Shown here in pieces: positions 10,501 through 36,957 of a stretch of DNA of 36,957 nt. Position 1 is the first letter of the stretch. The number at the start of each line of letters is the position of its first letter. Location: contig CAJAHH010000059.1 of NCBI GenBank assembly GCA_903939515.1, positions 1 to 36,957 of the forward strand. The letters run 5' to 3'. Made by a program: the position numbers and the translations under genes. A model generated the notes under the pieces. That model did no database searches. It worked only from the letters and a program-made list of their open reading frames with translations, and was not told where the DNA came from. This DNA is from an uncultured Verrucomicrobiota bacterium (GTDB lineage Bacteria; Verrucomicrobiota; Verrucomicrobiia; Limisphaerales; UBA9464).

Positions 10501-12693
10501 GCAGCGTCCTCCGAGGTTTTGAGCCGATTGTCTCCGGCGGAGCAGTCGTTCCGCACCAATGTGCTGCACGTGGCCGACTTCACCGAAGATGTGGGTGCCA
10601 CGCTCGTTAACGGCATCAATGGGGATCCGATCAGCGCCGGCCTGGCCATTGGTCTGGATTATCAGGAGTTCCCCGACCTGGGGTCGCTGCTCGACTTTTC
10701 GACCTTCCCAGACGCCCTGCGACCCACGGGCGATGCGGCCTCCATCCTCAACCAAGACGAAGGGCGGATCATCGGCCTGCGCTATCCGCGGACCGGCAAT
10801 GACAGTCCAGGACGGGTGGTTTTTCTATCGATTCCTTGGGAGTCCCTTCCGACAGAGGCGGAAGCCCCGAACAACAAGATTACCGTGCTCGGCCGGGCCC
10901 TCGACTTTCTGGTGCCGGGATTGCGCGGTGGCTCGAGTGTGACCTTTCACCAACCGGCCTACACGCTGCCCTCGGCCGCCATGATCGAGGTGAATGACGC
11001 GGCCCGTTCGGGGCAGAAACGGGTCACATTACAAATTAGCAGCACCTCCGATCCGAAGGGGTTTGAGTTACCCTTGGCCGAGACCCCCTTGAAGGGCGTG
11101 TTTCGAGGCCGGGTCACCCTGAGCGCCACGGCGACCGACACCAACTCCCTGCGACTGCGCTGCGCCCATGGGGATTTTCTTACCGCCTCTTACAACAACG
11201 CCTCCGAAGTCGCCTTAGCAACCCAAGCAATCATCGACACGGTGCCCCCAGTGATCAGCGCGGTAGACTCTGATCCGGCCTACAATGAAGCGACCATTTC
11301 TTGGACCACCGACAAACCCACCGACACCCTGGTGCGCTTCGGCGAGAGCAGTGGCGACGATTCACTGCTCACCCGCACCGCCTACTCGGCGGACCTGACC
11401 ACCGAGCACGAAATCCAGATCTCAGGCCTCCAACCCGATCGTGACTACTACTTCCTGCCCGTAAGCCAAGATGAAGCCGGCAATGCGGTGACAGCGCGTC
11501 TAGCGGGGCGCTCGTTCCGCCTGCGCACCCTGCGACCTCTGGATGCCCCTTGGCAGGACTCCCTGGAGAAGGGGCGGTCGGGATGGGCCACTTTCGACGA
11601 CACGGCCTTCGACGACGAAACCGGAGAGAGCTTGCTCAATACCACGTGGCAGTTTGGCACACCGTCCAACCGATACGGAATCGCACCCCATAGCGGCACC
11701 CACTGCTGGGCCACCAACCTCGAAGGACAAGCGGTCGATACGGCCATTGCCGACCTGCTGAGTCCGGCCATCGACCTTCGGGGTGGCAACACCGCCCGCC
11801 TGAAGTTCCGCACCTGGTACGACACCACCGAACGCAGCGACCTCTTGGACTTCGAACTCTGCCAGGTGGCTATTAGCACCAACAATGGCGCTCAATGGAG
11901 CGACCTCGTGGGCTTCGGTTTCGGAGAAGTTTCAGCCGATTGGGAAGAGGTGGACGTCGACATCAGCCGATTCGCTGGGCACGTCGTCCGGATCCGCTTC
12001 AACTACCAGTTGCTCAGTTTTGAAACGACCGACCGTCCGGGCTGGTTTGTGGACGATCTGGAAATTTCCCTAACTCAGAATCAATCGTCGTCGTTCTCCA
12101 TCACCAACAATTTGGCGCAGGCCACCTTCAGTGTCCGGGGGCCCACCAACTTCACAGCGCTCGTCGGATCCGGCCGCTGGTTTAACGTGTCCAATGCGGT
12201 TCCCGGCGAGTACGTGGTGCGATGGTCGCCCGTGGAGCATTACCTCACACCCGCCGCAGTCACCAACCGTGTGGGCACCAACACGCTGGTGATTAACGGC
12301 CGCTACGAGTTCCCCGATGCCAATAAAAATGGAATCTCCGACCTGTGGGAAAACACCTACTTTGGCCGCATTCTGGGAGACGATGCCGCGCCCGAAATCG
12401 ATTCGGACGGCGATGGATTCTCCAATCACTCCGAGTTCCAGGCGGGAACCGATCCTAAGGATCCGGCTTCCAGTCTCCGACTCAACCTCCCCTCCGGGGG
12501 AGTGAATGCGCCAATCCGGATCTCTTGGCCCAGCCAGGCGCGCCGAGAATACTTGCTGGAGATTAGTGACGATCTCCAGCGCTGGACCATCGCCAGCGAC
12601 CCACGCATCGGGACGGGCGGCCCACTGACCAACACCATCCCCGCCCTGCTGGGACAAGGTCGCTATTACTTCCGAGTACGCGTCCAGCCTTGA
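7516..12693 (+). CDS. Large secreted subtilisin-like serine protease with fibronectin-like and Ca-binding regions
   Basis: A 1725-residue protein with an N-terminal signal peptide (residues 1 to about 22, ending near ATAQDA). The S8 peptidase triad is complete: D243 in VAVADSGLD, H280 in HSHGTHCAG and S484 in GGTSQAGPHVSG, with oxyanion Asn at N391 in SAGNSG. Residues before about 225 look like a prodomain. After the catalytic domain come a P-type jelly-roll-like stretch, Ig/fibronectin-like segments (for example ISWTTDKPTDTLVRFGE), a region resembling a beta-jelly-roll adhesion domain ending WFVDDLEI, and Asp-rich calcium-binding repeats (DANKNGISDLWE, DSDGDGFSNHSEF). It ends with a module of about 50 residues, shared with two other secreted proteins here, closing in YYFRVRVQP. 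It is likely exported to degrade extracellular protein. Confidence 0.9.
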   Translation: MLLRGWIAGFVVALSCLISATAQDARFIRLRNSTVTTPPAPNSKARAAAVTAGKPPVSGLFLIQLEGPLSAEHRETLQSKRLRLLSPVPDDSFVCHLDAASTAEIRAIPFVRWLGEYQPEWRMDRRLTAAMAAEPRVPRNIRLLLRPQTPPAALISALRQFSGPVHRTETAFGIFLGGTTSPGRILELARSETVLWIEPAGRMKLVDEIATESLMGDDGTPGKPAQVHNLGFDGRGVTVAVADSGLDTGETETMHQDLNGRVDAFFAYGGLEDASDEHSHGTHCAGIVAGSGAIGTQDDNGYLWGLGVAPGAHLVAQRLFDGAGEYYAPPSYEALTRDAVRSGAYVGSNSWGDDTQGRYDLSAAEFDALVRDADSRTPGEQPYILEFSAGNSGPGEQTIGSPAVAKNVIATGACQNDRFDLALYAEGSETMADFSSRGPAEDGRIKPDITAPGTWIASLKSQFASDANAWLGIDENYLFQGGTSQAGPHVSGACAVFVQWYRETQGGLTPSPALVKASLINSAVDMTSGEVPVDTDDEEAGTMLVVGGTPPVPNNDEGWGRCDVAALITGERRFNFTDQGIELKTGAFWEKRLIVGADDALKVTLAYTDVPGLPAAIPALVNDLDLEVVSPDGRIFRGNAFLDGESMADTAEGDRINNVEGVWISNPAAGEWILRVRAQRVLQDVHGRTNATPEQDFALVASGQIPFPGEGVVSWDKETYPAPSAAQIRLVDTDLRNQASATVTVASDSQPVPLTLTLLPSGTGGSFTGAVSLVTSPKAGSLTVANGNTLTISYTDASPAGLRTRSATIDLDPPVLDSVRAIQRFGRTTLRFNASEPVRSVAVINPINGPAFTVTNAFFRTSPELFLPELVPDQIYRYFIVATDGAGNVQTNDNAGRYYFFTATRPAKALLLYSPETTFEQLNLPFPEIEHWTQPLDALGIDYEVWNFAETNTVPSAALLSAYRVVLWRPEDLATLPAGLASGLSAYVAGGGALFAASSEVLSRLSPAEQSFRTNVLHVADFTEDVGATLVNGINGDPISAGLAIGLDYQEFPDLGSLLDFSTFPDALRPTGDAASILNQDEGRIIGLRYPRTGNDSPGRVVFLSIPWESLPTEAEAPNNKITVLGRALDFLVPGLRGGSSVTFHQPAYTLPSAAMIEVNDAARSGQKRVTLQISSTSDPKGFELPLAETPLKGVFRGRVTLSATATDTNSLRLRCAHGDFLTASYNNASEVALATQAIIDTVPPVISAVDSDPAYNEATISWTTDKPTDTLVRFGESSGDDSLLTRTAYSADLTTEHEIQISGLQPDRDYYFLPVSQDEAGNAVTARLAGRSFRLRTLRPLDAPWQDSLEKGRSGWATFDDTAFDDETGESLLNTTWQFGTPSNRYGIAPHSGTHCWATNLEGQAVDTAIADLLSPAIDLRGGNTARLKFRTWYDTTERSDLLDFELCQVAISTNNGAQWSDLVGFGFGEVSADWEEVDVDISRFAGHVVRIRFNYQLLSFETTDRPGWFVDDLEISLTQNQSSSFSITNNLAQATFSVRGPTNFTALVGSGRWFNVSNAVPGEYVVRWSPVEHYLTPAAVTNRVGTNTLVINGRYEFPDANKNGISDLWENTYFGRILGDDAAPEIDSDGDGFSNHSEFQAGTDPKDPASSLRLNLPSGGVNAPIRISWPSQARREYLLEISDDLQRWTIASDPRIGTGGPLTNTIPALLGQGRYYFRVRVQP

Positions 12694-26266: not shown

Positions 26267-26341
26267 GCCGGTGTAGCTCAGTGGTAGAGCAACGGTTTCG
26301 TAAACCGTAGGCCGCTGGTTCAATCCCAGTCACCGGCTCCA
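26267..26341 (+). tRNA. tRNA-Thr (anticodon CGU)
   Basis: Complete cloverleaf: acceptor GCCGGTG (26267-26273) pairs with CACCGGC (26331-26337); D-arm GCTC/GAGC; anticodon stem ACGGT/ACCGT with loop TTCGTAA giving anticodon CGT at 26299-26301; T-arm GCTGG/CCAGT around TTCAATC, with one G-U pair; discriminator T and an encoded CCA. It reads threonine ACG codons. Its 3' half (26296-26341) is repeated at 32546-32591, so it is the attachment target of an integrated element, which leaves the tRNA intact. Confidence 0.95.
26296..26341 (+). other. Left attachment site (3' end of tRNA-Thr)
   Basis: 46-nt segment from the anticodon loop to the encoded CCA. Compared with 32546-32591 it shares blocks of 16 (TTTCGTAAACCGTAGG), 11 (GGTTCAATCCC) and 11 (CACCGGCTCCA) bases, with six substitutions, all falling in or just before the T-stem. 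Confidence 0.8.
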
Positions 26342-26495: not shown

Positions 26496-27632
26496 ATGAC
26501 GATCATTCGAAAGACCTTCCCTCGAGTGCGCACCTACATCCTGCGGGGAAGATCACGGTTTGAAGTGGATGCAAGGAAAAAAAGCGGGGGCCGTAGATTT
26601 TATTTTTCCAACCGATCCGATGCACTGAAGAAGGCAAAGCAGCTTGCTTCGGTTCTCTCGGATCCAGTGGCCATCGTGCGATCCGGAGATGGTGGTCCGG
26701 ATAAGGTGCTTCTTGAACGGATTCTCCAACTCCTTGAAGGGCAGATACTGACAACTCCCACCACCACGACCGAGAAGTCCTTCCATGAGCTTCTTGACGA
26801 GTGGGTTGAGGCTCGTCGACAGGATAAGTTCAAACCTCTTCGACCCCGTAGTTTCCAGTCGATCCGGATAGTTTGTAATCGGTACAAGGAGCTATTTGGC
26901 CGGTGTTCAATCAACCAGATTGACCGTGAACGGGTTGAGACTGTTTTTTCCGATCAAAACTGGAGTTCCCAATCATTACGAAACTATCGTAGTTATCTAT
27001 CGCAGTTCTTTAACTGGTTGATCAGGAGAGGGATAACCACAACAAACCCCCTTAAATATCTCCAAGTGTCTGTAGTTAACCACAACGTGGAAGTATACTC
27101 GATTGATCAAGTCAGTCAGATTCTTTCAACAGTCCAAAAGGAAAAGTACGTTTCATTGACTCCGTATATTGTCCTCGGGTTGTTTTCTGGGATTCGTCCT
27201 ATTGAGATCGAAAGAACCACTTGGGAGGCCAATATTCGTTTAAGAACCGATGAGATTGAGATTCAAGCTGGGATTTCGAAGACAAAACGTTCTCGACGAT
27301 TCGTGTTGGAACCCATTTTGAAGTCATGGTTGATGTGGTTCAAGGTAAACCACGAATCAGATCCCATAATAGCTTCCAACTTTCGAAGACGGCTGGACTC
27401 TTTCAAAAAGGTTCTACCGTTCAAATGGATTCCAGACGGTTTAAGACACACTTTTGGAACATACCACTATAATCGGACAAAAAACATTGGTGAACTAACT
27501 TTCATCATGGGTAATTCAGAGGCTGTAGCAAAAAGACACTACATTACCACCATCCCTCAAAAGGATGTTGGTCGATTCTGGAACCTGTATCCCGATGACT
27601 TTAATTCCGTTAAACAGACTGTTTCATCTTAG
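26496..27632 (+). CDS. Tyrosine recombinase (integrase of element 1)
   Basis: A 378-residue integrase expected to insert and excise the element at the tRNA 3' end. Residues about 1-60 look like an arm-binding domain, 95-185 a core-binding SAM-like domain (FHELLDEWVEARR, SLRNYRSYLSQFFNWLIRRG), and 200-355 the catalytic domain: R234 in SGIRPIEIE, K262/K264 in ISKTKRSRR, R317 in DGLRHTF, the GNS box at 339-341 and nucleophile Y349 in KRHY. The usual His of HxxR is Asp (D314) and the GHxS His is Asn; such replacements are common in integrases of this phylum as I know them. The gene lies right beside the tRNA and overlaps the convergent serine recombinase by 9 nt. Base use is more AT-rich than in host genes. 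Confidence 0.92.
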   Translation: MTIIRKTFPRVRTYILRGRSRFEVDARKKSGGRRFYFSNRSDALKKAKQLASVLSDPVAIVRSGDGGPDKVLLERILQLLEGQILTTPTTTTEKSFHELLDEWVEARRQDKFKPLRPRSFQSIRIVCNRYKELFGRCSINQIDRERVETVFSDQNWSSQSLRNYRSYLSQFFNWLIRRGITTTNPLKYLQVSVVNHNVEVYSIDQVSQILSTVQKEKYVSLTPYIVLGLFSGIRPIEIERTTWEANIRLRTDEIEIQAGISKTKRSRRFVLEPILKSWLMWFKVNHESDPIIASNFRRRLDSFKKVLPFKWIPDGLRHTFGTYHYNRTKNIGELTFIMGNSEAVAKRHYITTIPQKDVGRFWNLYPDDFNSVKQTVSS

Positions 27633-28280
27633 GAACCGTAAAAGTCGGTGGATTTGTGTTGGTGAAAAACGATTTCCTCTTGTGGTCTTAAAACCTCGAC
27701 GATTCATTCCTTCAGCAAGGTCAGATAGCTTGTAAATTCCCTGGCCCTGTAATTCCCGGATAATAGGGATCCATTGAGAGTAACGTTGTTGACACTGCCT
27801 TTTTCGAACTTCGATGGCTTTAGACACCGCGTTTTGAATACAGGGACTACCAAGCTTTACACCCCGACGTCTTGCTGCATCAAGAGCTGCCTTTGTCCGA
27901 GTAGAGATCATTGTTCGTTCATACTCTGCGACTGCAACGAGGATGTGTATAAGGAACGGTGTTGCGTGAGGGTTATCGACTGCGAGGAAGTTCACCTTGG
28001 ACTGTTGAAGAGTGGTAATGAAGTGGAGATCTCTGCTGAGTCGACATAACTTGGCCACCAAAAGCGTTGCACCGGTCTCACGACACTTTTGGATTGCCTG
28101 ATTCAAGACGGGACGGTCTGAACGTTTTCCACTCTCAATCTCGGTGAGTTCATCCAAGACACCCCCTTGAACCTTTTCCACGTAATCTCGCACCGATTGA
28201 CGTTGAGCTTCCAAACCCAACCCACTGATACCTTGCTGGTGGGTTGAAACACGGTAGTAGCAAACATAGTTCGTTTTCAC
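27624..28280 (-). CDS. Serine recombinase (resolvase/invertase family)
   Basis: A 218-residue small serine recombinase. The catalytic S12 lies in YYRVSTHQQG, followed by family segments LEAQRQSV, LLVAKLCRLSRD, FLAVDNPHATPFLIHILVAVAEYER and TKAALDAARRRGVKLG. Residues about 165-218 form a helix-turn-helix-containing tail (LSDLAEGMNRRGF, SPTQIHRLL). It starts at a GTG at 28280 with no evident ribosome site. Likely roles are resolution of element multimers or inversion of a segment. Its stop overlaps the end of the convergent integrase gene by 9 nt. It is too short to be a large serine integrase, so it is unlikely to mediate integration itself. Confidence 0.92.
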   Translation of the reverse strand: MKTNYVCYYRVSTHQQGISGLGLEAQRQSVRDYVEKVQGGVLDELTEIESGKRSDRPVLNQAIQKCRETGATLLVAKLCRLSRDLHFITTLQQSKVNFLAVDNPHATPFLIHILVAVAEYERTMISTRTKAALDAARRRGVKLGSPCIQNAVSKAIEVRKRQCQQRYSQWIPIIRELQGQGIYKLSDLAEGMNRRGFKTTRGNRFSPTQIHRLLRFLR

Positions 28281-28488: not shown

Positions 28489-28680
28489 ATGAATGACTTT
28501 ATACGAAAACCCTCACCAGATCCGTTAGTTGAAGAGGTTATCCAAGAACTCAAAAAAGATGGTGTGGACATTGATACCATGGAAAATGTGGTTAACCTTA
28601 AACGACACATGGATAAACTCTCCTGTACCAAAGATCAGATATTGGTTCTCAAGGTATGTCCACCCGGATCAAACCTTTGA
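28489..28680 (+). CDS. Short PSPDP-type protein, element 1 copy
   Basis: A 63-residue hydrophilic protein (MNDFIRKPSPDPLVEEVIQELKK) that I do not recognise. It aligns with the start of the gene at 35128 in element 2: both have PSPDP(L/M)VEEVIQ and a following Gly and Asp-Thr. Within this block the DNA differs mainly at third codon positions (CCA/CCT, GTT/GTC, ATC/ATT), indicating protein-level constraint. Both genes are preceded directly by TATTTATAGG, whose AGG may be a closely spaced ribosome site. After the stop, related coding patches continue in other frames to 28917, so this may be the intact head of a longer decayed gene. Confidence 0.55.
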   Translation: MNDFIRKPSPDPLVEEVIQELKKDGVDIDTMENVVNLKRHMDKLSCTKDQILVLKVCPPGSNL

Positions 28681-29388: not shown

Positions 29389-30528
29389 CTATGGTTTCAA
29401 AATACCCTCTCTTAGTAACGGTCTATGTCCTACGATCGATTCAAAGATGGATTCAGCCTGTTGTCTCAAGGTCAAAGCATCACGGGTAAGACATAAAAAT
29501 CCATCATACATCGGAACATACCAAACCTGATTTGTCATGGCCCACCGTCCTAATTTCTGAACAAACAGGTCAGCCTCAAGGTTTTGCAACGATAATGCCA
29601 TGGATGGAGTGTTGCAGATCGTGTTGAAAAGGTTGGGAAAGTTGGTTTCTAACCATCGACCCATTATGTTGTTTGACGGGTGTTTCTTGTCACACAAAAA
29701 ACGACTGACAACTCCTTTCAAACGGTCTCTTGAACTCTTGGATTTTGATGAACTGGCCAACACACCGTAGAAGTCTTCTTTCAGGATCTCAACGAAACGA
29801 CTCTTTTCAGAAGGATCGTGTATCCAAAACGGTAAAAGGTTCGGGTAACAAGCAGTGACGTCAAAATACACCAACGATTCTCCGGTTTCCTCCAAAATCA
29901 GGTTAACACGAGCCTCCTTTACCATTCTTATCACGGTATGAGATAACCTTTTAGAGTTTTCACCGTACTTGACATCAAATCGTTTGTGGTAAACCCATTT
30001 AGAGTATTCTAGTCCAAAGATCCGTCGATGTGTGTCTTCAATATGAACCAACTCTTTTCTGACCGTTAACCGGTTCAAATTGGTCAACACGAACTTTGAA
30101 ACGTCATCCGTTGGATCACTACCATCATTTACCCTGATTATTCGGGGGTGGTTAAATGTAAAGAATGTGGTTTCAGTTAACCTGTTCTTGAGATTTAAAC
30201 CGGGTATTCGATAACTCTTAGTAAATCCTTTGTCAACGTCAGAAGAATACGATTGATTGATGTCCAGACATTGGTTCTGTACCATCCATTTTAATACGGT
30301 AGAGTAATTGTTTCCCAATAGATTCCCCAACACGCGGCTGGATACGTTGTGGTAAAGACCAACATCTTCTGAGTCACGTATAATCATGTGGTGGATCAAC
30401 GCTCTTTGACGTTTTTCAGTATCCGTCAATGAACTTGTTGATAACAACGTCCCCAACTTCTTGGACACCACAAGTATTTCCTGTTTCAACCAAGGTCGTT
30501 CAAGATCATTTCGTTGTTTCCGGGTCAT
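29389..30528 (-). CDS. Putative element replication protein with polymerase-like palm motifs
   Basis: A 379-residue protein not confidently assignable to a named family. Residues about 55-110 look like a winged helix (NVSSRVLGNLLGNNYSTVLKWM, then a KSYRIP strand). The second half has three motifs in the order expected of a family-A-like polymerase palm: D223 in YFDVTACYPNLL, K271 in a basic helix RDRLKGVVSRFL, Q315-E318 in LQNLEADLF, and D342 in VPMYDGFL. Plasmid and phage proteins with a winged helix plus DxxxxxP and HDS motifs are known to me from Bacteroidetes elements, and this resembles them. Hence a replication role is inferred. It has a strong start: AGGTGG five bases before the ATG. 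It is downstream of, and separated by a terminator from, the LamG gene. Confidence 0.6.
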   Translation of the reverse strand: MTRKQRNDLERPWLKQEILVVSKKLGTLLSTSSLTDTEKRQRALIHHMIIRDSEDVGLYHNVSSRVLGNLLGNNYSTVLKWMVQNQCLDINQSYSSDVDKGFTKSYRIPGLNLKNRLTETTFFTFNHPRIIRVNDGSDPTDDVSKFVLTNLNRLTVRKELVHIEDTHRRIFGLEYSKWVYHKRFDVKYGENSKRLSHTVIRMVKEARVNLILEETGESLVYFDVTACYPNLLPFWIHDPSEKSRFVEILKEDFYGVLASSSKSKSSRDRLKGVVSRFLCDKKHPSNNIMGRWLETNFPNLFNTICNTPSMALSLQNLEADLFVQKLGRWAMTNQVWYVPMYDGFLCLTRDALTLRQQAESIFESIVGHRPLLREGILKP

Positions 30529-30594: not shown

Positions 30595-32274
30595 CTACTG
30601 AACCACTTTCAATCTCCAAAACGAAGTAGCCTTGCTGGCTCGAACTAAATGATTCTGGTTGTTCCCATTACCAACAACAACTCCACCTTGGGGAGTCCAT
30701 TGATTCATGTCAGTCGATACTTCCAGTTGATACTTCACACCAGTCAGGGTGTAAAACTCAACATCAACCGCGGGAAAGATAGCCAATGCACCCGTGGGTG
30801 TGATATTGGGATTCTTAGGGTTACCATCCCTCGCGACTTCAATACCGTCACTATATCCATCACCATCAGTATCAGTGGTCAATGGATTGCTTCCATAGGT
30901 CTTAACCTCTGAAAAGTCATTTAAACCATCACCATCAGTATCAGGATTGGTAGGATTCGTTCCAGACAGTATCTCCTCATAATCACTTAAACCATCCGAG
31001 TCACTATCCGTAACCACAACTGTGACGGTAACCTCCGTACTAATGGTCGTTCCATATTGGTTTCCAACGATCACCCGGTAACGTCCATTTGCAGACGATC
31101 GAACCGCACTCACCAGCAATGAACTTGATGTTGCTCCCGGTATGTTCTGCTGATTTAATTGCCATTGATACGTAAGTGTTCCAACTCCAGACGCAGTGAC
31201 TGACAACACCAACTGCGTTCCTTCCGAAGGTGCTTTTCCAACTGGTTGAGTCACAATGGTTGGAGGTGGTGTGCTTACGGTAAGGATTACAGAATCGCTT
31301 ATGACAGCCCCTCTACTATTGCTTATGATAACGCGGTAACGGTTTCCGTTCATTGATTTTGTAACTGAGCCTTCAGTGTAACAGTTTGATGTTGCGCCGG
31401 GAATATCTTGTTCATTTCGCTGCCACCGGTAATTGTACAATTCACCATCTTTAACATTTACACAGAAGGCCGTGCTGCTCCCTACGGTGACCGATTGATT
31501 TTCGGGTTGATTTATAATGATAGCCGATTCGTAGTTGTATAAAGATTTGATCTCAGAATCAGTAAGAGATCGGTCGTAGATGCGAAAATCATCCATGCTT
31601 CCACTAAACCCTGTATTATAATTATCATTGTTTACACCAATGAAGGCTTGGTCACCTGTGGTATTAAGCAGTAACATGTTGGTCGATCCGACAGGTAGGC
31701 CGTTTAGATAAAAGTTTGCAACTCCAGACCTTAACGACACGACTAAATGGTTCCATCCTTCATTTATGTGAGCATCAATCTTTGCATGATCGTAATTGTA
31801 GCCCATAACGCTTACCTTGTTAAATGTGATGCTGCTTTCGTGTCCAACCCGAAAATTGAATGCTTGATTATTTTTTGGGGTTCCACTGGAGAAGATGTAT
31901 GCCCAAGGTTGCTCATTCCTCATTTTTACCCATACAGAGACACATCGATCTGCGTTGCCCTTAGCCGACAAACCTTTGTTTCGTATATCCACAAAAGCAG
32001 AACCGTTTCCAGGAAATATTAGAGCACTAGAAGGATTACCGAAACGATCGGTATCTGGTTTGATCAAGGCTGTTCCAGATGCAATAATGATTCCATCACG
32101 ACCATTTCCGCTTACGTCCTTTGCGTGTCCATTCAACGGGTAATAAGCAACAAGTCCGTCTTGTAGAAATGCGGGTTGAGCTTTGGAGGACTGCGCGATC
32201 GCAAATCCAATCAGGATGCAGAAGACAATCCGTTGAAGGATTCCGGAAGGGAGTGACTTGAATTTTGAGGTCAT
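30595..32274 (-). CDS. Secreted LamG/Ig-like protein with Ca-binding repeats (element cargo)
   Basis: A 559-residue exported protein when started at the ATG at 32274, which puts a signal peptide at residues about 12-32 (IVFCILIGFAIAQSSKA); an upstream in-frame start at 32427 would bury it. Domains: a LamG/concanavalin-like lectin fold (LVAYYPLNGHAKDVSGNGRDG ... GFSGSMDDFRIYDRSLTDSEI), two Ig-like domains (INQPENQSVTVGSS, VTQPVGKAPSEGTQ), thrombospondin-3-like Asp repeats (DSDSDGLSDYEE, DTDGDGLNDFSE, DTDGDGYSDGIE), and the C-terminal module ending FWRLKVVQ. It likely binds carbohydrate or surfaces. It is the only clear cargo gene of element 1 and resembles host secreted proteins in architecture, although its DNA is more AT-rich. 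Confidence 0.82.
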   Translation of the reverse strand: MTSKFKSLPSGILQRIVFCILIGFAIAQSSKAQPAFLQDGLVAYYPLNGHAKDVSGNGRDGIIIASGTALIKPDTDRFGNPSSALIFPGNGSAFVDIRNKGLSAKGNADRCVSVWVKMRNEQPWAYIFSSGTPKNNQAFNFRVGHESSITFNKVSVMGYNYDHAKIDAHINEGWNHLVVSLRSGVANFYLNGLPVGSTNMLLLNTTGDQAFIGVNNDNYNTGFSGSMDDFRIYDRSLTDSEIKSLYNYESAIIINQPENQSVTVGSSTAFCVNVKDGELYNYRWQRNEQDIPGATSNCYTEGSVTKSMNGNRYRVIISNSRGAVISDSVILTVSTPPPTIVTQPVGKAPSEGTQLVLSVTASGVGTLTYQWQLNQQNIPGATSSSLLVSAVRSSANGRYRVIVGNQYGTTISTEVTVTVVVTDSDSDGLSDYEEILSGTNPTNPDTDGDGLNDFSEVKTYGSNPLTTDTDGDGYSDGIEVARDGNPKNPNITPTGALAIFPAVDVEFYTLTGVKYQLEVSTDMNQWTPQGGVVVGNGNNQNHLVRASKATSFWRLKVVQ

Positions 32275-32545
32275 GGGGTAGGAACGGACTTGTGGTTTTC
32301 GGTTTCGGCCGAGTGGTATTATCTGTCCAAAAGGGCCGTTTCCGACAATAGGTTTATTGGCGTTACAAAAAATCTTTCGGGGTCTCCTTTTTTCGTGGGG
32401 GGTATGAGGGCCACAGTAAACCTCCATTCACCGGGAAATCACGCGAACGGTCCGACGTCAGAATTGCCGACATCGCGATGGTGGCCCGATCCTGATCGTT
32501 TGGGGGGTACCTCGAATTCTGGGGGGAAATTCGGGTTAACTGATT

Positions 32546-32591
32546 TTTCGTAAACCGTAGGTCGTCGGTTCAATCCCGACCACCGGCTCCA
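32546..32591 (+). other. Right attachment site: diverged 3' half of tRNA-Thr
   Basis: A 46-nt copy of the tRNA-Thr 3' half from the anticodon loop to CCA. It lacks the 5' half, so it is not a functional gene. Six substitutions relative to 26296-26341 include paired changes that keep, and improve, the T-stem (GTCGG with CCGAC instead of GCTGG with CCAGT). It therefore descends from a different functional tRNA-Thr(CGU) gene, as expected when an element brings a tRNA end from another host. Confidence 0.85.
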
Positions 32592-32653
32592 GTACGTTTT
32601 CCCCAGTGTTTACAGGGTTTTTCACGCGTTTCAACGCGCTAAAACCCCCAACT

Positions 32654-32677
32654 GTCAGGAGAAACGCGGTCAGGAGA
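32654..32677. repeat. Direct repeat GTCAGGAGA, possible integrase 2 sites
   Basis: Two identical 9-base copies at 32654 and 32669, 15 bp apart, between the tRNA fragment and the second integrase gene. Position suggests recombinase binding, but nothing else supports it. A perfect CGCGTT/AACGCG inverted repeat lies just upstream at 32624-32637. Confidence 0.35.
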
Positions 32678-32761
32678 CCTTCCTCCACCTTCCTCGTATT
32701 GGCCCTAACTCAGGGCTGAGGGTCAAGGGGTCGAGCCGATATACTCAGTGGCGATATTACC

Positions 32762-33895
32762 ATGAAGTCGTCACCTGATCTAAAAACCCTGGGAACCGGT
32801 ACCCTGTACCTCCTCCAACGCCAACCCTCGCAGATCTTCTACGCCGAGAACATCCACGGAGACCGAATCAGCCTCGGTACCAAAGACCGCGCTACCGCAG
32901 AGGAAATGCTCCGCGGCCACAAAGCATCGGTGGAAAAACCCAATTTCGCCTACCGAGTCGCCATCGCTTACCTCGGGGAAACAGACCCTGACGCCCAAAC
33001 CCGAACTTGGCAGGACGTCATCGACGCCTACATCAAGCGCAGCGCAGCCGGTCCCACCCGCAACCGATTGGAAACCGCCAAGAAGGACAGAGCCCTCCAG
33101 AAGATCCTCAAGCTCAACGTCCTCCAAGACCGCCCACGCCAAGCCGGTCTCTTCTTTGAGGCCCTTAACAACGGCGGAATCTCCACCAACGTCTTCCTGC
33201 GACGGTTCCACAACTTCGCCCTCGATATGGGCTGGATCGCCTCCCCAATCATTCCCCGCCGTCAATGGCCCAAGGTCCGATACGCCGCCAAGAAGGCGAT
33301 CACCGAGGAACAGTACCTTAGGATTATTGACCGAGAGCAAAACCCCGAGAAATTGGCCTTTTACCAGCTTCTTTGGCATTTGGGTGGTAGTCAGACCGAC
33401 ATCGCCACCCTCACCGCAGAAGCCATCGATTGGACCAACAGGACGGTCATTTTCCCACGCAAGAAAAACCACCAGACCTGTGCCCAACGATTCGGTGACG
33501 AATGCGCCGCGATCCTAGAAAAGCTTCCAAAACAGGGGTTGATACTGCCGAGCATTGCCAGACTCGGAGAAGGAGACAGGGCTAGCTACTTCACCCTTAG
33601 ATGCAGAACTTTGGGAATCACAGGCATCAGCCTCCACTCCTTCAGGTACAGTTGGGCCGAGCGAGCCGCAGCTGTCGGGATGCCTGAACGCTTCGCAATG
33701 ATGGCGTTGGGCCATAAATCCCGGGCGATCCACCAAGCCTACGCCAAGAACCTTTCTACCACGATTGAATCCCTTGAGGTCTTGACCAAGAAACGCGAGG
33801 CCGAGTTGAAGGCTAGCGCACCGGTCATCAGCCCGGATTTCGGATCGACAATCAGTTCAACCGAATCCGATCAAGACCGGTCTGTGGTGGCGTGA
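32762..33895 (+). CDS. Tyrosine-recombinase-family protein (integrase of element 2)
   Basis: A 377-residue protein of the phage-integrase fold. The C-terminal half has H292-x2-R295 in LHSFRYSWAERA, H318 in ALGHKS, and Y327 in IHQAYAK. The first catalytic Arg, normally in TGLRxxE, is absent: the matching segment reads LGGSQTDIATL, with Q211 near the expected position. I recall this arrangement (SQTD and HSxRYxWAERA) as a widespread subfamily in Verrucomicrobia and Planctomycetes, so it is a family trait rather than local damage; whether such proteins recombine DNA by themselves is uncertain. Base composition is like the chromosome. It is not closely related to the integrase at 26496. Confidence 0.85.
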   Translation: MKSSPDLKTLGTGTLYLLQRQPSQIFYAENIHGDRISLGTKDRATAEEMLRGHKASVEKPNFAYRVAIAYLGETDPDAQTRTWQDVIDAYIKRSAAGPTRNRLETAKKDRALQKILKLNVLQDRPRQAGLFFEALNNGGISTNVFLRRFHNFALDMGWIASPIIPRRQWPKVRYAAKKAITEEQYLRIIDREQNPEKLAFYQLLWHLGGSQTDIATLTAEAIDWTNRTVIFPRKKNHQTCAQRFGDECAAILEKLPKQGLILPSIARLGEGDRASYFTLRCRTLGITGISLHSFRYSWAERAAAVGMPERFAMMALGHKSRAIHQAYAKNLSTTIESLEVLTKKREAELKASAPVISPDFGSTISSTESDQDRSVVA

Positions 33896-34248
33896 TTCCA
33901 ATCTGTCAGCCCCGTTCCAAAACCCACGGAAAATTGCCCGTTTGAAAACGATGGTTTTGCAGTGTTCTTGAGGGCGTTTTCTTCCGGAGTGAACGCCAGC
34001 GTTTCGTCCTTCATCGAATGGACATCACCAGCGTTCAAGAAACCGCAGACTTAATCGGAAGTCGCAACGATACCAACCGAATCCGGAAGGATCGATGCCC
34101 CGACAGATCCTTGGAGAAAATGATCTCCAGACCGACTGATTAAGCCAGTTTTCATGCCGTCGATGAAACCAATCATCCAACCCTCCGCATGCAAAAGTCC
34201 CCACTCCAGCCAAAGCTGAGGTGGGGCATCACATTTCGGACCCGAGCG
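33896..34248. other. Intergenic region after integrase 2
   Basis: 353 bases of host-like composition. It holds an inverted repeat GAAAACG/CGTTTTC (33944-33950 and 33975-33981), which could terminate the integrase transcript, and a 41-codon ORF (34018-34143, MDITSVQETADLIGS) with no ribosome site that I do not count as a gene. The hairpin at its right end is listed separately. Confidence 0.5.
34199..34226 (-). terminator. Hairpin terminator for the small DNA-binding gene
   Basis: CCCCACTCCAGC (34199-34210) pairs with GCTGAGGTGGGG (34215-34226) with one mismatch and one G-U pair. On the minus strand it is followed by ACTTTTG, a short T-run, 23 bases past the stop of the minus-strand gene. Confidence 0.65.
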
Positions 34249-34656
34249 TTAATTGGCACCAACGGCAAACTCACATTTCAGGAGGTTTTCAGACGCGTCT
34301 TCTGCGCAACCCCCGTGGGACTTGCTCCTGTTTCGGCCATAAATCGCCTTCGTAGCAACGGACAAACTTTCATGGCACCGACCAAGTGCCTCGACGTCGG
34401 CAAGTGCAAAGTACTTCACGGCGTTATGGGCTGGCTCACCCAGGGGCATGATCAAATCCTGGCGGACCAAAACGGTCATGTCGTCTTCATGGAAGCCGAG
34501 CAGCTCAGCAGCTTCGGAGGCTTTCAACCGTGCGGGTGGATGAGCGCGGAGTAGAAACCTGTCAACCATCCGCGCAAATCCCTCCAATTGAAGCGCACCT
34601 GCAGTGGTTCCAGTTCCAAGAAGCGGTGGAACAACCTTGCCAGCAAACAGGCTCAT
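34249..34656 (-). CDS. Small helix-turn-helix DNA-binding protein
   Basis: A 135-residue protein from the ATG at 34656 (a GTG at 34668, nearer to an AAAGGA, would add four residues). The centre, RLKASEAAELLGFHEDDMTVLVRQDLIMPLG followed by KYFALADVEAL, has the shape of a winged helix-turn-helix of excisionase/MerR type, which recognises DNA with an ASEAAELLG first helix. Proteins like this are often found beside integrases in Verrucomicrobia, so it may be an excisionase or regulator for integrase 2. No catalytic motifs are present. Base composition matches the neighbouring integrase and differs from the AT-rich DNA to its right. Confidence 0.65.
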   Translation of the reverse strand: MSLFAGKVVPPLLGTGTTAGALQLEGFARMVDRFLLRAHPPARLKASEAAELLGFHEDDMTVLVRQDLIMPLGEPAHNAVKYFALADVEALGRCHESLSVATKAIYGRNRSKSHGGCAEDASENLLKCEFAVGAN

Positions 34657-34668
34657 GGTAGGCACCAA

Positions 34669-35127
34669 TCCTTTCTAACTGGACAGAAGGTCAGTTTGAC
34701 CAACTCAGGTTGCCAGCCGATAAATGGTCTACTCGACCACCATCTCTTCCTGTTGTATTGGAGGTTGTTGTTTATCGTTACAGAACAATCTCTGTAACCC
34801 GTTTGTATTTTATTGTTTTCCATAAATTCTTATCGTCACTTCGGATGAACTGTAGTATAACTTTTGGATCACCCGATTTGTCCGACGATGAACACATTAA
34901 ACCACCCACTAATCACAAAGTCAATACATTTCTCCACCAATCATCACATAGTAACTGAACCACCCAACCATTTGGACACACTTTCCATCGGTCTGGTTCG
35001 TACTCGTTGTAAGTGTAACGTCATCCAATCAGCCAAATATCAAGAGCGTCGGATCGATCTCTGTTCGATTTGACCAGTTAGCGTGGCAATTAGTTGTGGT
35101 TTAGTGGTTTTTATACTATTTATAGGT
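34669..35127. other. AT-rich region, no secure gene, one strong hairpin
   Basis: 459 bases where base composition drops sharply. GTTACAGA (34777-34784) and TCTGTAAC (34791-34798) form a perfect 8-bp stem with a 6-nt loop, followed by a T-rich stretch. A protein-like patch (FGSPDLSDDEHIKPPTNHK, around 34859-34916, frame 3) lacks a good start and may be another decayed coding remnant. Just before the next gene, TATACT (35112-35117) could be a promoter -10 box. Confidence 0.45.
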
Positions 35128-35346
35128 ATGATATCAATTAAACCCGATCGTGTACCTTCACCTGATCCGATGGTTGAAGAGGTCATTCAAATCTTCCAGT
35201 CCAAAGGGTACGTGGCAGACACCCTGAACAATTTGACAAGAACTTCATCAGCGTCGTTTCACAACCACCTGGAGAAATCGGTCTTGTTGATGCCAAAACA
35301 CTTTCCAACCGATCAACCAATACCACCGCAAACCCCTCTAAATTGA
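35128..35346 (+). CDS. Short PSPDP-type protein, element 2 copy
   Basis: A 72-residue protein from the ATG at 35128 (MISIKPDRVPSPDPMVEEVIQ); an upstream in-frame start at 35083 would add an unrelated hydrophobic stretch and is not shared with the other copy. The PSPDP-x-VEEVIQ block, the position of the start and the TATTTATAGG immediately before it all match the gene at 28489. Function is unknown. The stop TGA is followed in frame by CCT-ACA-GTG-AAT (PTVN), which matches the continuation of the element 1 copy, so the gene may have been truncated. A hairpin terminator follows at 35509. Confidence 0.5.
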   Translation: MISIKPDRVPSPDPMVEEVIQIFQSKGYVADTLNNLTRTSSASFHNHLEKSVLLMPKHFPTDQPIPPQTPLN

Positions 35347-35508
35347 CCTACAGTGAATTGGAAGTGGTGTAGGATCCATTTGCCCATTTGACCCTCTTGA
35401 ACGTCCTAGTGACCGTTTAGGAACTCCACCAACGGTTTGGGTTAAAGTCGTTGTAGTTATCTTTAGGTTATACCTTATCGTCCGGTCATATGATGATATG
35501 TATAATCG

Positions 35509-35572
35509 ATTCTCTGGAACATTTTCTCGTAACGTCCCCAAACGTTCAAATTTGTTCCAGAGAATTCTTTTT
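35509..35572 (+). terminator. Long hairpin followed by a T-run
   Basis: A 13-bp perfect stem (35509-35521 with 35553-35565; arm TTCTCTGGAACA) encloses a second small hairpin AACGT/ACGTT (35531-35535 with 35542-35546). TTCTTTTT follows at once. It fits a terminator for the PSPDP-type gene and insulates the RNA promoter a few bases further on. A protein-binding or replication site is an alternative. Confidence 0.6.
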
Positions 35573-35580
35573 AAAATAAG

Positions 35581-35609
35581 TTGTTTTCACCAACTTACCG
35601 ATATATATT
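35581..35609 (+). promoter_or_regulatory. Candidate sigma-70-type promoter of the structured RNA
   Basis: TTGTTT (35581-35586), a 17-base spacer and TATATT (35604-35609). This predicts a transcript start near 35616. It lies directly after a terminator hairpin and before the structured region. Confidence 0.6.
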
Positions 35610-35615
35610 GTTGTG

Positions 35616-36155
35616 AGTATGTTTGGGGGAGAAATCCCAGACAGTTTGTCCTGTTGTAAATGGTTCAAAACCAAAAGTTCCCAACTCCTAATAGAGTGAA
35701 GGAATCATAGAGTTGACAGTTTATGGATTTACAAAGTGTGGAGTCCAACCTTGGGGGGTTGAAAATATGATGTGGTAACACACATTACCTGAAGTAAGTC
35801 CCGGCCCTTAGCGAAAGCTAAAAGAGATGGTTGGTGGGTAAAACCACCGGAGTTTTAGGAGGATAACTCTGTTAAAGACTGTCTTGAACAACATTGTTCC
35901 ACCCCACTTTATCCGACAGCAAACACTGGGAAATTCAAGAAATCCAGACTTGTTGAGGTTGAAGATCCTCGTAATGGGGAACCTTTAACCTCAACAATCC
36001 AAGAAAATTCAGATCAAGAAAACCAAACTCAAGAAGAAAAGAAGTGAAGAGTTAGGAAGTGAAGAACTGAAAGTAAATAGCTTGAAGCGCAACAACACAT
36101 TAACCGCAGCAAATCGATGTACAAACCCCAACCTTCAAGGAGGTTGGGGTTTTGG
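35616..36155 (+). ncRNA. Candidate large structured noncoding RNA (about 540 nt)
   Basis: The segment has its own promoter and terminator and no convincing ORF. Hairpins visible along it: GTTTGGG/CCCAGAC (35621-35642), TGGTT/AACCA (35661-35673), CAACTC/GAGTTG (35682-35715), CAACC/GGTTG (35746-35761), ATGTG/CACAT (35770-35785), TTAGC-GAAA-GCTAA with a GNRA loop (35808-35821), TTGGTGG/CCACCGG (35831-35850), GAGTT/AACTC with AGGAGG in the loop (35850-35869), GAACA/TGTTC (35886-35899), and a 10-bp stem TGTTGAGGTT/AACCTCAACA (35951-35996) with an inner TCCTC/GGGGA hairpin. A purine-rich tail (36001-36075) precedes the terminator. Size and mobile-element setting recall GOLLD and ROOL RNAs, but I cannot assign it to either. 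I see no copy in element 1. Confidence 0.6.
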
Positions 36156-36156
36156 T
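36124..36156 (+). terminator. Rho-independent terminator of the structured RNA
   Basis: AACCCCAACCT (36124-36134) pairs perfectly with AGGTTGGGGTT (36141-36151) around a 6-nt loop and is followed by TTGGTTT. This is the strongest terminator in the AT-rich region. Confidence 0.85.
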
Positions 36157-36192
36157 TTAGCGCTTATCAGGTTCTGAAGTGAAGAGGTGGTG

Positions 36193-36330
36193 ATGTGGTT
36201 AATACATGGTGGTTTCAACCTACACATATGCCGCTCCTTGCTACCGCAACAAGCCCCCCTCCCCCAGCAAACCACCACCACCATGTTCCATCCATGGCAA
36301 ATCAGGACGGTTACACCACCCCCAATATGA
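36193..36330 (+). CDS. Possible 45-aa protein with LHIC motif
   Basis: An ATG-started ORF (MWLIHGGFNLHICRSLLPQQ...) with a Shine-Dalgarno-like GAGGTGG a few bases before the start. GGFNLHICRS resembles the GELNLYICS and GDLTLYICS patches of element 1 (29306 and 28937). The second half is Pro/Gln/Thr-rich. The short length and low-complexity tail keep confidence low. It lies just after the RNA terminator. Confidence 0.3.
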   Translation: MWLIHGGFNLHICRSLLPQQAPLPQQTTTTMFHPWQIRTVTPPPI

Positions 36331-36378
36331 ACCAAAAAGCGTCTGTGAACCAGCTACAACGACGCTTAACGAACGCAA

Positions 36379-36633
36379 ATGGACGTTAAAGGGTGGTATA
36401 CCCCCCTCCCATACCCTGACGAGGTTACTTCTGAACATGGAGCATCCGCAGCGTCGGTACCCCACCAGAGTTGCACAACACACCCGGAGAAAAATCCATG
36501 GGGAGATCGTATATATTGGACACAGTTTCCTTGGTCAGACTGTTTTGAGAAGTTCAACAGATTTCACCCAACGGATTGGTTGAACCATCTTGAACCAGAA
36601 ACAAGTCACCTTTGGTATTATCCAGAACCATAA
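36379..36633 (+). pseudogene. Separated second half of the PSPDP-type gene
   Basis: An 84-codon frame (MDVKGWYTPLPYPDEVTSEHG ... TDWLNHLEPE ... YYPEP). It matches the frameshifted continuation of the element 1 gene: YTPLPYP with TTPLYP, TSEHGASAASVP with TSEHGGSLTSVP, and TDWLN with TDWIN, with mostly third-base differences (GGA/GGG, ACG/ACT, AAC/AAT). In element 1 this part directly follows the PSPDP head; here about 1 kb including the structured RNA lies between. It has no ribosome site, so it may be untranslated or part of a split gene. Confidence 0.45.
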
Positions 36634-36702
36634 AAACGAATGGTTTAGGTAATTTTACAACCAATTGTTATTTTAACATTATTTTAATAGTATAGTGTCG
36701 GT

Positions 36703-36888
36703 TTATAACAACATTTCACTGGACATTTCCGTAATCTCTGATACAGTTGATTTCAGAGTTAAGGAACGTTCGAAGAAACGTAAACCTTCCTCCTTCGAAA
36801 TCCAGTTGATACCGTTTATCGATTCTGGGTTCCGATACAATTTCAAAAAAACAAAGTAAAATAAACAACAGTATGGAGACAAAGACAT
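36703..36888 (-). CDS. Possible small protein, unknown
   Basis: A 61-residue frame from the ATG at 36888 (MSLSPYCCLFYFVFLKLYRNP ...), with an alternative TTG start at 36924. The second half (GINWISKEEGLRFFERSLTLKS) is hydrophilic and protein-like; no family is recognised. Upstream, TTTTATTAGGGTGG resembles the leader TTTTATTAGGTGG just before the replication-type gene of element 1, which hints at related control or a displaced gene start. Confidence 0.3.
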   Translation of the reverse strand: MSLSPYCCLFYFVFLKLYRNPESINGINWISKEEGLRFFERSLTLKSTVSEITEMSSEMLL

Positions 36889-36957
36889 ATAAGTTACATC
36901 ACGAAAACCATGAACTGAACTCAACCCACCCTAATAAAAGGATCACAAAATCCCCGG

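Follow-up and report, generated by a model that had tools for sequence, protein, structure and literature searches.

A candidate stand-alone structured RNA of orphan family in a tRNA-Thr-integrated element of an uncultured Verrucomicrobiota bacterium

Introduction

Does a gene-poor stretch of mobile DNA in an uncultured Verrucomicrobiota bacterium encode a large RNA that acts on its own, and if so, to which family would it belong? The stretch occupies positions 35612 to 36156 (forward strand; start approximate; ∼540 nt, or 545 nt between these coordinates) of the window, by which we mean the whole 36,957-nt sequence analyzed here. The original prediction held it to be a stand-alone, hairpin-dense RNA in a tRNA-integrated element, possibly a new or divergent relative of GOLLD and ROOL. 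PMC12286853 describes GOLLD and ROOL as RNAs of phages and prophages that often lie near tRNA islands, have no known function, and form nanocages, and many GOLLD RNAs are longer than 800 nt. GOLLD RNAs have a conserved 3′ region and a variable 5′ region.

Here, we evaluated the predicted fold, the genomic context, and the distribution of this locus. The best-supported reading is that positions 35612 to 36156 encode a structured RNA that stands alone, is accessory to a system of tRNA-Thr-integrating elements, and belongs to an orphan family (probability of about 0.5); part of it recurs in the tRNA-Thr element of a second species. The proposed membership in GOLLD or ROOL did not survive, and on our best reading of the sequence, the candidate would resemble these RNAs in lifestyle only, without kinship.

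Two tandem elements at one tRNA-Thr gene

The tRNA-Thr(CGT) gene at 26267 to 26341 (+), identified by tRNA search and by an Rfam match, serves as the attachment site. A 46-nt sequence at 32546 to 32591 (+) duplicates the anticodon loop of this tRNA together with its 3′ half (87% identity), and the only other occurrence of TTTCGTAAACCGTAGG in the genome is in this att-like copy. This tRNA-Thr(CGT) gene therefore has two elements in tandem, joined to each other (elements 1 and 2) at the att-like copy. Each element starts with a tyrosine integrase, located at 26496 to 27632 in element 1 and at 32762 to 33895 (+) in element 2 (the latter matching PF00589, E = 9 × 10−9, and phrog_1, E = 2 × 10−22). 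GC content is ∼60% up to the tRNA-Thr gene and ∼43% thereafter, with a rise to ∼56% around the second integrase. The candidate RNA sits in element 2, whose far end lies beyond the end of the contig, in low-GC DNA that is poor in genes. These features bear out the original assignment to a tRNA-integrated element. No phage structural module was seen in element 2 up to the contig end.

Element 1 has contents of its own. It carries a serine resolvase (27624 to 28280, −; PF00239, E = 1.8 × 10−26) with a homologue in the element of genome G008 and, as cargo, a protein (30595 to 32427, −) that combines LamG and immunoglobulin-like domains with TSP3 repeats and has PHROG hits to tail and Hoc-like decoration proteins.

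Predicted fold and flanking signals

The minimum free energy (MFE) fold of positions 35612 to 36156 reached −159 kcal/mol and contained 14 hairpin loops, in agreement with the at least 10 local hairpins originally reported (shuffle mean, 10.9; 13 of 100 shuffles also reached 14). At the 5′ side (35620 to 35924, +), a hairpin at 35620 to 35643 is followed by a closed multibranch domain at 35644 to 35924, in which four long-range helices were predicted with probabilities of 0.90, 0.84, 0.64, and 0.76. Helices of this 5′ domain include 35644 to 35648 with 35920 to 35924, 35651 to 35656 with 35914 to 35919, and 35715 to 35722 with 35876 to 35883; the closing helices reappeared when the domain was folded by itself. 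The GAAA-capped stem noted previously is present in the MFE fold at 35808 to 35821. Further downstream, a 15-pair hairpin that encloses a 5-pair stem (35950 to 35997, +; pairing probability, 0.97) is formed by 35950 to 35964 with 35983 to 35997 and includes one G-U pair. An A-rich linker (35998 to 36122, +) leads to a terminator-like hairpin (36123 to 36156, +), with 36123 to 36135 paired to 36140 to 36152. Thus, the proposed terminator hairpin is present, with 13 pairs, but its T-run is interrupted (TTTTGGTTTA spans the stem end). Neither strand of 35612 to 36156 contains an open reading frame (ORF) of at least 60 amino acids, as had been predicted.

The candidate is bounded downstream by a repeat motif at 36206 and upstream by a perfect inverted repeat of 12 bp that has a T-rich tail (35510 to 35564) and may terminate the small gene before it. 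A stretch spanning this repeat (35475 to 35624) was unusually stable on both strands (z = −5.7 on + and −4.9 on −). The proposed promoter (35581 to 35609, +) is indeed present as TTGTTT (35581 to 35586), a 17-nt spacer, and TATATT (35604 to 35609), inside the dyad AAGTTG...CAACTT. However, it retains 8 of 12 consensus bases and was not listed by a promoter scan requiring at least 9 of 12, and positions 34900 to 36957 contained 2 promoter-like sites versus a shuffle mean of 3.8, no enrichment. Because of this modest match and the lack of any excess of such sites, the label "good promoter" was generous: the site is no better than chance and unconvincing.

Comparison with known RNA families

Covariance models from Rfam 15, searched across the whole window, gave no match to the candidate at the gathering score. 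With permissive filters (35400 to 36300 and 34900 to 36957), models for GOLLD, ROOL, OLE, and introns were absent up to an E value of 10. The covariance-model comparison thus assigns the candidate to neither GOLLD nor ROOL, and the suggestion that it is a member, even a divergent one, was not upheld. Group I and group II introns, OLE, and RNase P were likewise rejected for lack of a covariance-model match, as was tmRNA, which was recovered neither by covariance model nor by ARAGORN. A guide-like RNA was also rejected: complementarity to the rest of the window amounted to two antisense 12-mers and one 13-mer (shuffle expectation, 1.1 [SD, 1.3] and 0.3 [SD, 0.7], respectively), with none on the same strand. 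A literature search confined to such an RNA in Verrucomicrobia found no report.

The candidate and GOLLD share the general character of large noncoding RNAs of mobile DNA associated with tRNAs. They differ in length (∼540 nt versus >800 nt for many GOLLD RNAs) and in carrier, the candidate being borne not by a prophage but by an element that has a tyrosine integrase, sits at a single tRNA gene, and is truncated where the contig stops; in addition, the GOLLD model does not match. The likeness to ROOL, as far as the source describes its occurrence in phages and prophages near tRNA islands, is that of a large orphan RNA with a similar lifestyle. Here again the model does not match; features of ROOL include pseudoknots and a nanocage. 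In having a mobile carrier and in standing free, the candidate is like both families.

Fold stability and homologous fragments

We compared the fold with those of shuffled sequences. The whole of 35612 to 36156 was more stable than its composition predicts (−159 versus a shuffle mean of −132 kcal/mol; z = −3.8, 0 of 100 shuffles; z = −3.9, 0 of 200 shuffles). This excess is unevenly distributed, with the 15-pair stem and terminator accounting for much of it. Taken by itself, the 5′ domain was moderately unusual (z = −2.4 to −2.6), with z values of −2.4 for 35612 to 35925 (4 of 200 shuffles as stable) and −2.0 for 35650 to 35920 (9 of 200); for 35620 to 35924, 1 of 200 shuffles matched the energy and 10 of 200 the hairpin number. 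The linker (36010 to 36125) showed no excess stability (z = +0.1).

These data bear on the main rival explanation, namely, that the stretch is decayed or neutral spacer in which a long hairpin, two terminators belonging to neighboring genes, and chance hairpins coincide without the function of a single RNA. We regard this explanation as less probable than a structured RNA. In its favor, the stretch without the 15-pair stem and terminator (35612 to 35949) gave a z of −1.7 (7 of 200 shuffles), and 13 control stretches of 338 nt from both elements ranged from +1.65 to −1.82. The reverse complement of the whole stretch also scored −2.9 (1 of 200 shuffles), and the fold signal is therefore not strongly strand specific. 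The chance-level promoter, the surrounding low-GC DNA with few genes, and a very narrow distribution in genome searches also fit spacer. Against it stand the consistent closing helices of the 5′ domain, with an energy that 1 in 200 shuffles equals, and the conservation of 62 nt at 85% identity in the element of a congener beside flanks that do not align, which is more than a neutral spacer would be expected to keep.

The congener is Verrucomicrobia bacterium isolate K_Offshore_40m (genome G016; GTDB), from a sample that we take by its name to come from Lake Tanganyika. Its match covers window positions 35982 to 36043 in the 3′ part of the candidate (E = 1.5 × 10−11 in a one-genome search) and takes in the 3′ strand of the 15-pair stem, unchanged, together with the first part of the linker, with a 1-nt indel. 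The end of the element that carries this match splits a tRNA-Thr gene ∼1.1 kb away and shares 217 nt (80% identity) with the element end in G008. A different hairpin comes after the match and may serve a converging lipoprotein-like gene instead. The second fragment, in genome G319, is 34 nt long and 97% identical. Its single difference converts the pair U35721-G35877 to C-G and so retains the predicted pair. Because the adjoining membrane-protein frame (presumably DUF2339-like) stays open into the matched stretch, the G319 contig end may well be a chimera. The homologue search that was originally called for thus yielded two fragments covering different parts of the candidate, but both are cut by contig edges and no full-length homologue was recovered.

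G016 and G319 were the only other genomes with convincing matches in whole-genome blastn searches. The genome sets overlapped, and the window's own genome is included in the counts. Matches were found in 2 of 50 genomes of the family (own and G016), 10 of 320 of the order (own, G016, G319, and seven judged to be chance), 2 of 384 of the class (own and G319), and 2 of 387 of the phylum (own and one marginal, so none convincing). The context of all seven chance matches was inspected, and by eye most looked coding. The marginal phylum match, in G884, was seen only at a glance (34 nt; 85%; E = 9.8 × 10−4). In another blastn search, 11 of 13 matching genomes, those besides the own genome and G016, were judged to be chance; 8 of these share one 22-nt stretch, which is a conserved small-gene start in the six examined. 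One further homologue search was considered at E ≤ 0.02.

Structure-based and wider searches agreed with this narrow range. A one-sequence covariance model of 35715 to 35883 (R1), run over 20 sources, matched only the window and the G319 end; it matched none of four element stretches (three of them new), and matched the window only across 313 genomes under stricter filters. In the fetched stretches of relatives (19 + 3 loci), blastn found no copy beyond the own, G016, and G319 sequences; none was found against phages and plasmids. In IMG/VR, the exact patterns CCTTTAACCTCAACAATCCAAG and GGATTTACAAAGTGTGGAG and a gapped pattern each returned 0 hits, and AACCTCAACAATCCAAG returned five stretches, in none of which nhmmer found further likeness. 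No relative was among the 3 IMG/VR pattern matches obtained via the integrase of element 2 or the 130 obtained via the polymerase-like alignment described below. Neither element 1 nor the fetched stretches of G005 and G008 yielded a copy of the candidate; this absence, together with its presence in two tRNA-Thr elements, fits accessory cargo.

Given that no Rfam 15 family fits and that the distribution is cargo-like, an orphan structured RNA is the most likely explanation. Such an RNA would be transcribed from just upstream of 35612, released at the terminator-like hairpin, and act in trans as a free folded molecule, carried as cargo by a subset of the system's elements. Our best guess is that, acting as a scaffold or decoy, it would sequester a macromolecule of the host or of a phage. 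If real, it would extend the few large structured RNAs known from bacteria by a large orphan from Verrucomicrobia mobile DNA and would show that the lifestyle of GOLLD and ROOL arises outside those families.

Related elements and a possible role in replication

Short repeats connect the two window elements to stretches of G005 and G008; by eye, these have in common an integrase, a repeat motif (D1), a polymerase-like gene, and a small ORF that starts with PSPD..(V/I)E..IQ. The G008 element lies between the 5′ half of a tRNA-Thr gene and a complete copy of such a gene; it is opposite in orientation to the window elements, with the tRNA 5′ half duplicated instead. The integrase of element 2 is widespread, occurring in 155 of 313 genomes at E = 10−20 (own included), and the polymerase-like protein is rare (4 of 49 family genomes, own included). 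The latter (379 to 400 amino acids; window 29389 to 30528 [−], L070:5935 to 7137 [−], and L085:10313 to 11485 [+]) had no Pfam, PHROG, or PDB sequence match; motifs noted by eye are YFDVTACYPNLL and PMYDGFLC. Its structural model, built from a three-sequence alignment, had a mean pLDDT of 50.2, with blocks of 57 to 83 over residues 211 to 379. All of the best 50 matches listed for this model are family-A DNA polymerases or single-subunit mitochondrial RNA polymerases (best match: Z = 12.0, RMSD of 3.5 over 206 residues), suggesting that the related elements encode a small protein resembling family-A polymerases.

The D1 motif lies directly downstream of the candidate RNA (36206 to 36274, +) and is perhaps an origin or operator. 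Eight aligned copies (window 28931, 29301, and 36206; L070:5815, 7141, and 7251; L085:11534 to 11585 and 11854 to 11905) give a consensus of about AGGTNNTTSRACCTRYACATATG. D1 adjoins the polymerase-like gene in element 1, G005, and G008, and one D1 follows the RNA in element 2.

RNA II of ColE1-type plasmids is a structured transcript of ∼550 nt, and its replicon uses a family-A polymerase. By analogy, the neighboring D1 and the polymerase-like protein of related elements suggest that the candidate could control or prime the replication of a plasmid-like element, together with an element-borne polymerase acting at D1. The candidate is of similar length to RNA II and, by prediction, likewise structured. 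However, the candidate ends at a terminator before D1. Moreover, the three elements with a whole polymerase-like gene have no detectable copy of the RNA, and the polymerase-like gene, present in the related elements, is not seen in element 2 up to the contig end. We therefore consider a replication role improbable. About as improbable is the fuller version, in which the candidate would found a class of its own among large structured RNAs, one working with the element's own family-A-like polymerase as template, primer, or copy control, and the tRNA-Thr elements would be self-replicating, RNA-primed, plasmid-like islands. If real, the candidate also draws attention to an element system that has a small polymerase-like protein of its own and would lend itself to testing what an RNA does there.

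Related proteins of 261 and 301 amino acids were noted by eye at L085:12152 to 12937 (−) and L070:7917 to 8822 (+), respectively; the one in L070 had no Pfam match.

Intron and protein-coding readings

Alternatively, the candidate could be what remains of a retroelement RNA, such as a group II intron. Such a reading draws on G009, of the same genus, which has an integrase 99% identical to that of element 2 and a stretch 97% identical to window 32553 to 34946 that then continues as the 3′ portion of a group II intron (RF00029, 53 bits; reverse transcriptase tail by eye). The G009 contig lacks the RNA stretch because its element passes into the intron at the base matching window position 34946. 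The G319 match also starts abruptly next to coding sequence. However, the G009 junction corresponds to a site ∼670 nt upstream of the RNA, no Rfam intron model matches the window stretch, and no reverse transcriptase was found in the window among the families searched, making an intron origin very unlikely. The G009 copy of the element 2 start (L060, G009:C5, 1 to 5028) lies outside an intact tRNA gene and is cut by the intron 3′ part.

Least likely of all is the end of a small-protein gene (35857 to 36045, frame ending in VEVEDPRNGEPLTSTIQENSDQENQTQEEKK and a stop): the same frame stops after 20 codons in G016 and 21 in the window (by eye), but the frame has no start codon giving 50 amino acids and no Pfam match up to an E value of 10, and the reading is disfavored because the 1-nt indel in G016 shifts the frame within the best-conserved part.

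Small ORFs with the PSPD..(V/I)E..IQ start were located by eye in four elements, at window 28489 to 28680 and 35128 to 35346 (+), in L070 from ∼5482, and in L085 at ∼13567 to 13420 (−).
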